From an uncultured Pelagibacteraceae bacterium (GTDB lineage Bacteria; Pseudomonadota; Alphaproteobacteria; Pelagibacterales; Pelagibacteraceae), in NCBI GenBank assembly GCA_902569735.1, contig CACFVE010000007.1, forward strand, positions 1-49,638: a stretch of DNA of 49,638 bases. Direction: 5' to 3'. The notes beneath the pieces were generated by a model, which had not been told where the DNA came from, did not search any database, and was given only the letters and a program-made list of their open reading frames with translations. The position numbers and the translations under genes are program-made. Within the stretch, counting starts at the first letter, position 1. Each line of letters opens with the position of its first letter. This document shows positions 21,142 through 25,283 of the stretch, piece by piece.

Positions 21142-22188
21142 TTAATTTAGATTGTTTAAATTTATTGCAGCTCCAACAGCTTGTAAATTTTTCTTAGCTC
21201 CTAGACTTTTTAATAAATTATCGTACCGTCCCCCTCTAGCCAATTCTTTTTTACCAGCATAAACTTCAAATACCAGGCCGGTGTAGTATTCAATTTCTCT
21301 TCCAAAATTTGTATTAAACTTAATCTCTTTCTTTAATTTTTTTAAATCTTTTATAGATTTATAATCCTTAAAAATATTTTTCTTTAATTTGTTTTTTTTT
21401 TCAAAACTAGAAAGATTTTGATTTAATTTTTCTAATTTACAATTTATTTTCAAAAAAGATCTTATTATCTTAACAATTTTTTTTCCCTCATTAAATGATC
21501 TTGGGTCTCTAATTTTTTTATCAAATCTTTTTAAAATATCTAAAACTGATCTACCGGCAATATTTTTTTCTTTGTCCATCTTTTTCATCTCATAAAATCT
21601 TTTTTTATCTGCATCGAAAGCTATAGAATCAATATCAGAATTTTTTTCCAATCTTTTTAGTAATTCCTCAAAATAATCAGGACGCCAAAAATGTCTAATC
21701 AATCTTAGTTTCCATCTCTCAGGCATCTCAAGTGTATTAATTAATTTCTTAAACAGACTAACATCCCCAACTTTTATTGAAATTTTCTTAAATTTAATTT
21801 TTTCAATGGAATTAATAATTGTTTTTAAAACCTTTAAATCATCTGAAGTTTTTTTTTTAGAACCTAGTATCTCTATTCCAAGCTGATCATTTATTATTTT
21901 ATCTTTAGAATTATTTGATCTTCTGTAAGCTTGTCCGGAATAGAAAACTTTCGAATTTTTCCTAGATTTATCCTTTAAATATTTTATACAAGAAGCAATG
22001 GTCAGATCTGGTCTAAGACACATGCTTTTTCCAGAGTCATCTTCAAAGCTTAGCATTAACTTTCTAAAATTTTCTCCTGATCTTTGAATAATATAGTCTG
22101 AGTCCAAAAGAACATCTGGTTCGGATAAAACAAACCCTTCTTTCTTAAAAACCTTAATTATATTTTCAGAATATTTTTTTGATTTCAT
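21142..22188 (-). CDS. hisZ: ATP phosphoribosyltransferase regulatory subunit
   Basis: A HisRS-like paralogue without aminoacylation activity that forms the hetero-octamer with short HisG and confers feedback control. The 348 residues contain MCLRPDLTIASCIKYL in place of the synthetase motif 2 region, and GREIEYYTGLVFEVYAG and LARGGRYDNLLKSLG in the C-terminal half. It overlaps hisS by 23 bp. The pairing with a 225-residue HisG confirms the assignment; a second HisRS is unlikely because the full one is adjacent. Confidence 0.9.
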   Translation of the reverse strand: MKSKKYSENIIKVFKKEGFVLSEPDVLLDSDYIIQRSGENFRKLMLSFEDDSGKSMCLRPDLTIASCIKYLKDKSRKNSKVFYSGQAYRRSNNSKDKIINDQLGIEILGSKKKTSDDLKVLKTIINSIEKIKFKKISIKVGDVSLFKKLINTLEMPERWKLRLIRHFWRPDYFEELLKRLEKNSDIDSIAFDADKKRFYEMKKMDKEKNIAGRSVLDILKRFDKKIRDPRSFNEGKKIVKIIRSFLKINCKLEKLNQNLSSFEKKNKLKKNIFKDYKSIKDLKKLKKEIKFNTNFGREIEYYTGLVFEVYAGKKELARGGRYDNLLKSLGAKKNLQAVGAAINLNNLN

Positions 22189-23500
22189 TTGTTAGATCAT
22201 TAATTTTAACTGAATTTTCATTTCCAGTTACAAGATTTCTTAAAGTTATTTTTCCAGATTTTATTTCATCTTCACCATATAAAATTACTGCTGGGGAACC
22301 TATCTTATTTGCATACTCCATTTGTTTTTTTAATTTGCCTTCTCCTGGATAAATTTCAGAGCTAATATTTGAAGCTCTAAGTGTAGTTAATATCTGAACA
22401 TATTCTTTAATTTTATCTTTATCAAAAACACATATTACTATTGGCCTCTTATTTTTTATTTTAAAATCTTTTTTCTGCATTAAAGCAAACACAAGTCTGT
22501 CAATACCGATCGATATTCCTGTTGCTGGACAATCAAGATTTCCAAAATTGCTCACTAGATTATCATATCTTCCTCCTCCACCTATTGATCCAAATTGAAT
22601 ATTTTTTCCTTTTGAATTTCTAACTTCAAAATTTAAATTTACTTCAAAAATTGGTCCAGTATAATATTCTAGTCCTCGTATAACTGAGGGATCAAACTTA
22701 TAATTTTCAAAGTTATAAGTTTTGAATATTTTGATAATTTCTATAACATCTTCACTATTAGCTAATTTATTTTTTAAAGCATCTTCTATTTTTTTAATCT
22801 GCTCTTCTTTAAGTTTTGCACCTTTTGTGTAATCTCCAGAATTATCTTTTCTTCCTTCTCCAAGAAGTTTCTTAGCTTCTTCCCAACCAAGTCTATCTAT
22901 TTTGTCTAGCGCTCGTAGTGTAATAGATATTTGGTCTTGTGATGTAACATTCAATTCTTTGAACAATTTATCTGTAAATTTTCTAGAAGATATCTTTACT
23001 GTATAGTCAGTTTTATCTAATCCACATTTTTCTAATATCTCCGATATTAATACGCAAAGTTCTGCATCAGCTTGCAGATTCTTTGTTCCGACGTAGTCTG
23101 CATCAAATTGTAAAAATTCTCTAAATCTTCCAGGTCCTGGTTTTTCATTTCTCCAAACTGAACCTAATTGATATCGCTTAAATGGTTTCGGAATCTCCAG
23201 ATAATTTTTAGCTACATACCTTGCCAGAGGAGCAGTAAGATCATATCTAAGTGACAACCATTTGTTTTCATCCTTAAAAGAAAATACGCCCTGATCTGGT
23301 CTATCTTTGTCAGGTAAAAATTTTCCAATACTATCCGTGTACTCGAAACTTGGTGTTTCGAGATATTGAAAACCGTACTTAATCATAACTTCCTTGATAT
23401 TGGAAATTACAAAGTCACGGATTAATAGTTCCTTTTCTTGTCTATCTACAAAACCTAAAGGTAATTCCTTAGAAGGTTTTTTCTTTTTATCTTTTGCCAT
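22166..23500 (-). CDS. hisS: Histidine-tRNA ligase, alphaproteobacterial type
   Basis: Charges tRNA-His. I chose the ATG at 23500 (MAKDKKKK, 444 residues); the open frame extends 22 codons further up but only by reading through the tRNA gene. The class II core reads SLRYDLTAPLARYVA rather than the canonical bacterial LRPEGTA type, then YQLGSVWRNEKPGPGRFREF (motif 2), RGLEYYTGPIFEV, and GGGRYDNLV with motif 3. A C-terminal anticodon domain follows. This divergent, eukaryote-like HisRS is known in alphaproteobacteria together with a tRNA-His lacking G-1, which is what the adjacent tRNA gene shows. Confidence 0.94.
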   Translation of the reverse strand: MAKDKKKKPSKELPLGFVDRQEKELLIRDFVISNIKEVMIKYGFQYLETPSFEYTDSIGKFLPDKDRPDQGVFSFKDENKWLSLRYDLTAPLARYVAKNYLEIPKPFKRYQLGSVWRNEKPGPGRFREFLQFDADYVGTKNLQADAELCVLISEILEKCGLDKTDYTVKISSRKFTDKLFKELNVTSQDQISITLRALDKIDRLGWEEAKKLLGEGRKDNSGDYTKGAKLKEEQIKKIEDALKNKLANSEDVIEIIKIFKTYNFENYKFDPSVIRGLEYYTGPIFEVNLNFEVRNSKGKNIQFGSIGGGGRYDNLVSNFGNLDCPATGISIGIDRLVFALMQKKDFKIKNKRPIVICVFDKDKIKEYVQILTTLRASNISSEIYPGEGKLKKQMEYANKIGSPAVILYGEDEIKSGKITLRNLVTGNENSVKINDLTNEIKKIF

Positions 23501-23504
23501 TTTT

Positions 23505-23581
23505 TGGTACAGCAGGGTGGATTCGAACCACCGACCCCTAGTTCCACAAACTAGTGCTCTAACCAACTGAGCTACTGCTGC
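23505..23581 (-). tRNA. tRNA-His (GTG anticodon)
   Basis: A complete cloverleaf with encoded CCA. D stem GCTC/GAGC, anticodon stem CTAGT/ACTAG with loop TTGTGGA (anticodon GTG), a 5-nt variable loop, and T stem GGTGG/CCACC with loop TTCGAAT. The acceptor stem pairs G1 with U72, the discriminator is A73, and the base encoded at -1 is T, so the canonical G-1:C73 identity pair is absent. It lies 4 bp upstream of hisS and is probably transcribed with it. Confidence 0.95.
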
Positions 23582-24176: not shown

Positions 24177-25283
24177 TTAATAAATAATCGATACAAAGCC
24201 TGCTAAAAACACCAAACCAATACCTATATAAAGTAGTTTATTTTTGACTATATGAGTTTTTATTTTCTGAATATCTGATCCTTTGTAACTTAATCCAGTA
24301 TTATCCGACTCTGATGATTTACTGAAACCTTGATCTCGACCAATTTGTAAAAATTTTGCCTTTCGATTATCATAGATTTCTTCTTTTGAAAGGTGATCAA
24401 AACTTCTTAAATTTTTAATAATAGAATATTTGATATCTGCAGCAATTACTTCTGGATCTCTATGTGCACCCCCTGTGGGTTCAGAAATTATTTCATCAAT
24501 AATACGAAGTTTTAATAAATCTTTTGCAGTCAATTTCATAGCTTCTGCTGCCTGAAGAGATTTTCTTGGATCCCTCCAAAGAATAGAAGCACAGCCCTCT
24601 GGAGATATAACTGAATAAATTGAATTTTCTAACATAATTACTTTGTTTGATGATGCTAATGCTATTGCACCTCCAGACCCACCCTCGCCAATTATTATCG
24701 AAATATTTGGAACAGTTAAAGACATGCAACACTCTATTGAATTAGCAATTGCTGAAGCTTGCCCTCTTTGTTCTGCACCAATACCAGGATAAGCTCCCGG
24801 AGTATCTATAAAACTTATAACAGGAATCTGAAATCGATCAGCTAATTTCATTAGTCGAATACATTTTCTATATCCTTCGGGACGCATCATCCCAAAATTT
24901 CTATCTATTCTTGAGTTAAGATCTTCACCTTTTTCTTGCCCTATAATTAAAACTGATCTGTTATCTATCAAACCAAATCCGGCTATGACAGATTTATCGT
25001 CTCCGAAATATCTATCACCTGATAACAGTGTAAATTGAGTGAATATCTTTTTTATATAAAAATTAGCTTTAGGTCTATCTTCATGTCTAGCAACTAAAGT
25101 TTTCTGCCAGCTATTTAGATTAGCATAAGTTTCTTTTAGCTTTTCATTAATCTCAGCTTCTGTGCTTTGAATTTTTTTGGTATCTACCTCAGAAATACCT
25201 TCAGAACCAAAAGGGCTCTTCAGTCCCTCTACTTCCTCTTCCAAAGCTTTAATCTCTTTTTCAAATTCTAAATAATTTTTCAT
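24177..25283 (-). CDS. accA: Acetyl-CoA carboxylase carboxyltransferase subunit alpha with C-terminal membrane tail
   Basis: Part of the carboxyltransferase that makes malonyl-CoA for fatty acid synthesis. Residues 1-320 align with the whole of ordinary AccA: FTLLSGDRYFGDD, GRNFGMMRPEGYRK-like blocks, FIDTPGAYPGIGAEQRGQ, GEGGSGGAIAL and SPEGCASILWRD. A further 48 residues follow, a polar linker and then a hydrophobic segment (about 350-368) ending in Tyr, predicted to be a single membrane helix. E. coli AccA has 319 residues and no such tail. It is divergent from malate synthase. The core assignment is firm; membrane anchoring is inference. Confidence 0.93.
   Translation of the reverse strand: MKNYLEFEKEIKALEEEVEGLKSPFGSEGISEVDTKKIQSTEAEINEKLKETYANLNSWQKTLVARHEDRPKANFYIKKIFTQFTLLSGDRYFGDDKSVIAGFGLIDNRSVLIIGQEKGEDLNSRIDRNFGMMRPEGYRKCIRLMKLADRFQIPVISFIDTPGAYPGIGAEQRGQASAIANSIECCMSLTVPNISIIIGEGGSGGAIALASSNKVIMLENSIYSVISPEGCASILWRDPRKSLQAAEAMKLTAKDLLKLRIIDEIISEPTGGAHRDPEVIAADIKYSIIKNLRSFDHLSKEEIYDNRKAKFLQIGRDQGFSKSSESDNTGLSYKGSDIQKIKTHIVKNKLLYIGIGLVFLAGFVSIIY

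Follow-up and report, generated by a model that had tools for sequence, protein, structure and literature searches.

A predicted C-terminal membrane anchor on the acetyl-CoA carboxylase subunit AccA throughout the Pelagibacterales examined

Fatty acid flux is set by acetyl-CoA carboxylase, which in bacteria is generally regarded as a soluble enzyme; in this family AccA pairs with AccD as an alpha2-beta2 carboxyltransferase. The closest described systems bring a membrane helix to this same subunit from a separate protein, and of these we take YhcB and the protein described as LapD to be one and the same. The inner-membrane protein YhcB (ZapG-like, family PF06295) of Escherichia coli binds AccA as cells enter stationary phase, probably sequestering it in an inactive form, and E. 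coli AccA is also proteolysed (PMC12977641), while LapD suppressors map to accA, accC, and accD (PMC12652820). In plants, CTI1-3, which are single-helix proteins of the plastid inner envelope, bind a non-catalytic C-terminal extension of alpha-CT, a predicted coiled coil, in trans and in a light-dependent manner, and lower flux (PMC7712654). A third point of comparison is provided by bacterial tail-anchored proteins (e.g., DjlC, Flk, and ElaB), in which a cytoplasmic body is followed by a lone hydrophobic segment at the extreme C-terminus (PMC6794478, PMC6389858). Synthetic tail anchors with a GRAVY of only 1.04-1.57 have been described to insert in E. coli (PMC6794478).

The stretch of DNA analysed in this work (the window) comprises 49,638 nucleotides from an uncultured bacterium of the family Pelagibacteraceae, whose genome assembly is 74% complete and falls in family f1 of its order, its named neighbours being Pelagibacteraceae or Pelagibacterales. 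The gene accA, which encodes the carboxyltransferase alpha subunit with a C-terminal extension in an open reading frame of 368 amino acids (aa), is located at positions 24177..25283 on the (-) strand. In profile searches, PF03255 covers residues 4-315 of this protein (24339-25274) with 436.7 bits against a cut-off of 23, TIGR00513 (NCBIfam accA equivalog) covers residues 2-316 with 389.2 bits against a cut-off of 319.3, and NF004344 scores 431.1 bits against a cut-off of 357; both accA equivalog models stop at residue 316. The full-length ACCA domain, above its curated cut-off, places the protein in the AccA family, and an AccD match just below its cut-off lies in the same genome. The EGGSGGA region is invariant in 30 aligned AccA sequences, as are many other residues of the core. 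The protein is thus an ordinary AccA up to about residue 315 (core residues 1-315; 24339..25283, (-) strand), and what follows is a tail of 53 aa (residues 316-368) beyond the end of the Pfam match, which a preliminary description of this DNA had given as 48 residues by counting from about residue 320. Its report of a polar linker and a final hydrophobic helix of about 19 residues is confirmed. The polar linker consists of residues 316-349 (24237..24338, (-) strand) and ends in a lysine-rich patch (residues 340-349), and the predicted transmembrane helix consists of residues 350-368 (24180..24236, (-) strand), which form the best 19-residue window of the protein, with a Kyte-Doolittle mean of 2.34 and no charged residues. 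The stop codon (24177..24179, (-) strand) adjoins the hydrophobic segment directly.

The tail is found in every relative that we have read. The tail is joined to the core without an intervening stop or frameshift, in the window as well as in these relatives. The presence of the same tail in each of them rules out an assembly artefact and also a frameshift, which the preliminary description had named, alongside absence from close relatives, among the findings that would undo it. A separate reading frame running into accA is also ruled out, by the absence of an intervening stop and by a dN/dS well below 1. In a first set of loci from the window's own genome, its relatives (the best 80 of 289), and a collection of genome contigs, sets which overlap, all 111 carry the tail. 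The AccA profile matched in 53 of 61 genomes, in two of them (G055 and G059) as weak paralogues only, and the 8 genomes that gave none have an assembly completeness of 57-86%. When the order was sampled evenly, 145 of 148 genomes gave a match; once the weak matches of G055 and G059 had been dropped, AccA remained in 143, and in each of these its open frame is 362-406 aa long, whereas the Pfam match spans only about 311. In three Pelagibacteraceae of 90-95% completeness (G492, G546, and G554) the AccA match is absent, probably because of assembly gaps. C-termini were read across all 9 genera of this sample, in families f1 (g1, g5, g6, g280, g281, and g282) and f2 (g2, g3, and g4). In these overlapping collections, all 173 full-length loci have a tail closed by a stop, and the 133 distinct tails among them extend 44-55 residues after residue 316, with best 19-residue hydropathy means of 1.77-3.54 (mean 2.39); in 13 further Pelagibacterales genomes this value is 2.07-3.13. 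No AccA without a tail was encountered among the Pelagibacterales C-termini read (173 loci and 13 genomes; 9 genera, 2 families). The linkers keep their own motif within each genus group and those of g1, g6, and f2 are mutually unalignable, yet each still ends in a hydrophobic run of membrane length. The f2 linker (L030, L031, L142-L173) has a conserved start just after the core, approximately GLFSxxxxx[AV]NxxLxxK[YF]G, which is unlike the linkers of f1 and may bind something.

Outside the order no such tail was seen. AccA matches were obtained in 376 of 386 genomes in a class search, of which 80 genomes beyond the matches listed, mostly one for each family still unseen, were searched again, and in 147 of 150 genomes in a phylum search. 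The C-termini read from these other Pseudomonadota number 127, viz. 30 full loci from each of the two class searches and 67 C-terminal stretches picked because their frames were long enough to accommodate a tail, and none of the 127 has a hydrophobic tail. In contrast to the Pelagibacterales proteins, they end 1-36 residues after the core, all but 3 of them within 11, and the three longer tails (16 residues in G125, a polar 34 in G634, L332, and a very basic 36 in G111, L236) are not hydrophobic either. Among the matches listed, the unread AccA have frames that exceed the Pfam match by no more than about 37 residues, counted over both ends. A tree of the AccA core was obtained by a quick search from an alignment without the tail columns, in which the Pelagibacteraceae had first been thinned. 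One branch of this tree separates the 64 rows with a tail from the 60 without, with an SH-aLRT of 93, which is below the strong-support mark of 95; elsewhere in it, 7 end branches are long and support is weak for 60 of the 121 inner ones. This tree is most simply explained by a single gain of the tail in the ancestor of the order.

A hydrophobic tail is cheap to acquire with AT-rich codons. Random tails with the composition of the window reach the mean of 2.34 in 0.5% (25 residues) and 1.4% (53 residues) of cases, and the value of 1.77, below which no relative falls, in 4.2% and 11.3%, respectively, so that a single such tail might arise by chance. The last of these figures speaks for a neutral run-on, in which loss of the ancestral stop in an AT-rich genome would have given a functionless hydrophobic extension. 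Chance does not account for an arrangement that recurs in all relatives read with linkers that cannot be aligned. Several points speak against a neutral run-on: the change occurs once on the tree, after which both the length of 44-55 aa and the hydrophobicity have been kept in two families, no tail-less AccA turned up among the Pelagibacterales, and the dN/dS of the tail is well below 1. Neutral run-on is on these grounds very improbable indeed. The pooled Nei-Gojobori dN/dS is lowest in the core (0.03) and higher in residues 316-347 (0.18) and 348-368 (0.24). These values derive from the 60 closest of 1448 pairs (85-99% DNA identity) among 75 distinct gap-free sequences, and are rough, since sequences recur from pair to pair and independence is lacking. 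With a rough dN/dS of 0.2 the tail is under purifying selection, and it is a real, maintained trait of the order. The helix has a dN/dS about 8 times that of the core, its letters changing while its hydrophobic character is kept; this ratio and the lack of letter-by-letter conservation are among the points that count against an anchor.

The composition of the tail is that predicted for a tail anchor with the N-terminus inside and the C-terminus outside. In the 133 distinct tails, the 12 residues before the helix contain 2-6 K/R (mean 3.8) and on average 0.4 D/E, whereas no K/R follows the helix in any of the 133 and only 0-5 residues (mean 0.3) lie beyond it. The best 19-mer is free of charged residues in 124 of the 133 tails and includes a charge in the other 9, a further point against an anchor. 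By a simple hydropathy rule, on which the following counts rest, only one segment of the window AccA passes the threshold, and it begins at residue 350 of 368. Of the 47 open reading frames of the window, this is the only one whose hydrophobic segment is both single and C-terminal. Such proteins are rare: in a second genome (G255), 400 kb of sequence contains 4 of them among 372 frames of at least 120 aa, AccA being the most hydrophobic. Another of these four, we presume, resembles UbiB. The protein thus shows the hallmarks of a tail-anchored protein, viz. a lone hydrophobic segment at the C-terminus, K/R on the cytoplasmic side, and almost nothing after the helix. As the synthetic anchors mentioned above insert at a GRAVY of 1.04-1.57, the AccA tails at 1.77-3.54 are amply hydrophobic. 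The AlphaFold model of the protein is poor (mean pLDDT 45.9), probably because the 30 sequences behind it are too alike, and it is silent on membrane insertion; its best local pLDDT is that of a helix at residues 349-367, which lends weak support to the anchor.

A hydrophobic helix of this kind could also be buried in a protein interface, either in a higher-order carboxylase assembly or in the groove of another protein, leaving AccA soluble. The solved AccA chains include the recent entries 8uxz, 8uz2, 9e4n, and 9e4o beside 2f9y and 2f9i, the recent ones being, as we understand them, E. coli AccA, some as filaments, and the linker motif that is kept within each genus group would suit such a contact. 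The mean Eisenberg moment of the helix over the 133 tails is 0.09; it is therefore not amphipathic, and the want of a polar face and the fast change at the level of letters are unlike an interface helix. The K/R patch before the helix, with no charge after it, likewise fits a membrane, and we regard burial in an interface as quite improbable.

The main rival to anchoring is a turnover signal. The tail might mainly serve to take AccA to a membrane protease (e.g., FtsH), thus setting the level of AccA and the fatty acid flux, with any anchoring transient or incidental. FtsH takes some soluble substrates by their non-polar C-termini, which counts in favour of this possibility, and such C-terminal turnover signals are short, which counts against it. 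The proteolysis of AccA described in E. coli (PMC12977641) is compatible with a turnover signal, whereas the hydrophobic run of 19 residues and the preceding basic patch are kept in 133 of 133 distinct tails and it is the last residues of the tail that vary. Turnover as the main role of the tail is hence unlikely. We infer membrane insertion and its orientation from the hydrophobicity, the charge pattern, the lone C-terminal position, and the selection acting on the tail, all of which fit a tail anchor, and the AccA of Pelagibacterales is, on this sequence evidence, very probably a tail-anchored protein of the inner membrane; the tether proposed in the preliminary description is thus supported in part, with the location itself being a prediction.

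The partner subunits seem to bring no anchors of their own. The preliminary description had raised the question of matching anchors on them, and none was found: no 19-residue window exceeds 1.3 in 12 AccD, 11 AccB, and 6 AccC loci. Among 13 genomes (the window's own and 12 relatives), AccD was matched in 12, in one of them above the cut-off, AccB in 11, of which 10 above the cut-off, and AccC above the cut-off in 11. The AccD of the window's own genome scores 312.1 bits, just below the cut-off of 317.45, and AccB and AccC gave no match in this 74%-complete assembly, so that the AccB and AccC sequences examined come from relatives. Ten of the 12 AccD loci are full-length, two (L279 and L284) are the C-terminal part only, owing to a crude choice of start, and one (L285) codes for a divergent protein. 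Any membrane attachment of the enzyme would therefore be by way of AccA and not of the partners read.

In the arrangement that we envisage, the catalytic core of AccA would stay in the cytoplasm, followed by a linker of about 25-35 residues, the K/R patch would lie at the inner face, and one helix would span the membrane and end at or just past its far side. Each alpha2-beta2 carboxyltransferase would carry two AccA anchors, AccB, AccC, and AccD contributing none, and malonyl-CoA would be made at the inner membrane, near the place where acyl chains are used. We likewise infer that the enzyme is active while anchored and that the tail has a purpose, the likeliest being constitutive docking in cis that would couple the supply of malonyl-CoA to the membrane; though favoured, this purpose is a serious possibility that stops short of being probable. 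One polypeptide would then do what YhcB in E. coli and CTI in plastids do as separate proteins, and the flux-setting step would be placed where the state of the membrane can tune it or couple to it. Both of those systems resemble that of Pelagibacterales (SAR11) in acting through the same subunit, YhcB by way of an inner-membrane helix (PMC12977641) and CTI by way of a C-terminal extension of alpha-CT (PMC7712654). They differ from it in that YhcB acts in trans and according to growth phase, and the plant extension binds its single-helix partner in trans, whereas the SAR11 helix is within AccA itself. SAR11 AccA also differs from DjlC, Flk, and ElaB in that its cytoplasmic body is a subunit of a core metabolic enzyme. 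The analogy in purpose may fail, because the published docking in trans lowers flux and because an anchor that is always present offers no binding step by which to switch it. The fuller proposal, that SAR11 has hard-wired a membrane dock into AccA, making the carboxyltransferase obligately membrane-bound so that in these minimal cells the inner membrane itself, with no switchable docking protein, would be both the site where fatty acid synthesis starts and what tunes it, is one that we advance slightly more tentatively.

The family PF06295 of YhcB has no match in 58 Pelagibacterales genomes, including the window's own, and its absence may mean little, since only 1 of 14 control genomes (that of E. 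coli) matches. The preliminary description had called the arrangement unfamiliar for AccA. The fused (cis) form does appear to be new, while the enzyme and the idea of docking are known, docking through AccA or alpha-CT having been published in trans (PMC12977641, PMC7712654). No bacterial AccA carrying a transmembrane segment of its own was found in the open-licence PMC literature, as far as titles and the starts of abstracts among the matches listed go, and a SAR11 proteomics study reports AccB, the term 'AccA' being absent from its main text (PMC2864753).

SAR11 bacteria are very abundant in the sea, and a whole order of them appears to tether its acetyl-CoA carboxylase via the enzyme's own subunit. 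If this is correct, the same subunit would be docked in enterobacteria, plastids, and SAR11 in three unrelated ways. Docking of AccA would then look like a general control point, and in SAR11 the dock would be separable by removing 19 codons rather than a partner gene.

Two minor observations concern the AccD sequences and the surroundings of accA. The zinc motif of AccD has CxC as its first half in Pelagibacteraceae (L275, L276, L277, L280, and L283) and CxxC in f2 (L274, L278, L281, and L282), the second half being CxxC in Pelagibacteraceae too. L285 (G005:C1:112003-112863), the only AccD found in that genome of the same genus, is 36% identical to L280, scores 124.5 bits as against 301-316 for others of the genus, and has its cysteines as CxxC then CxC; it may be either a divergent copy or a foreign contig. 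Elsewhere in the window, a tRNA-His gene (GTG) is located at 23505-23581 on the (-) strand, immediately upstream of an open reading frame at 22166-23566 (-) that presumably encodes histidyl-tRNA synthetase; the TTG start listed for this frame falls inside the tRNA-His gene, and the protein-coding gene therefore probably begins at a later ATG.
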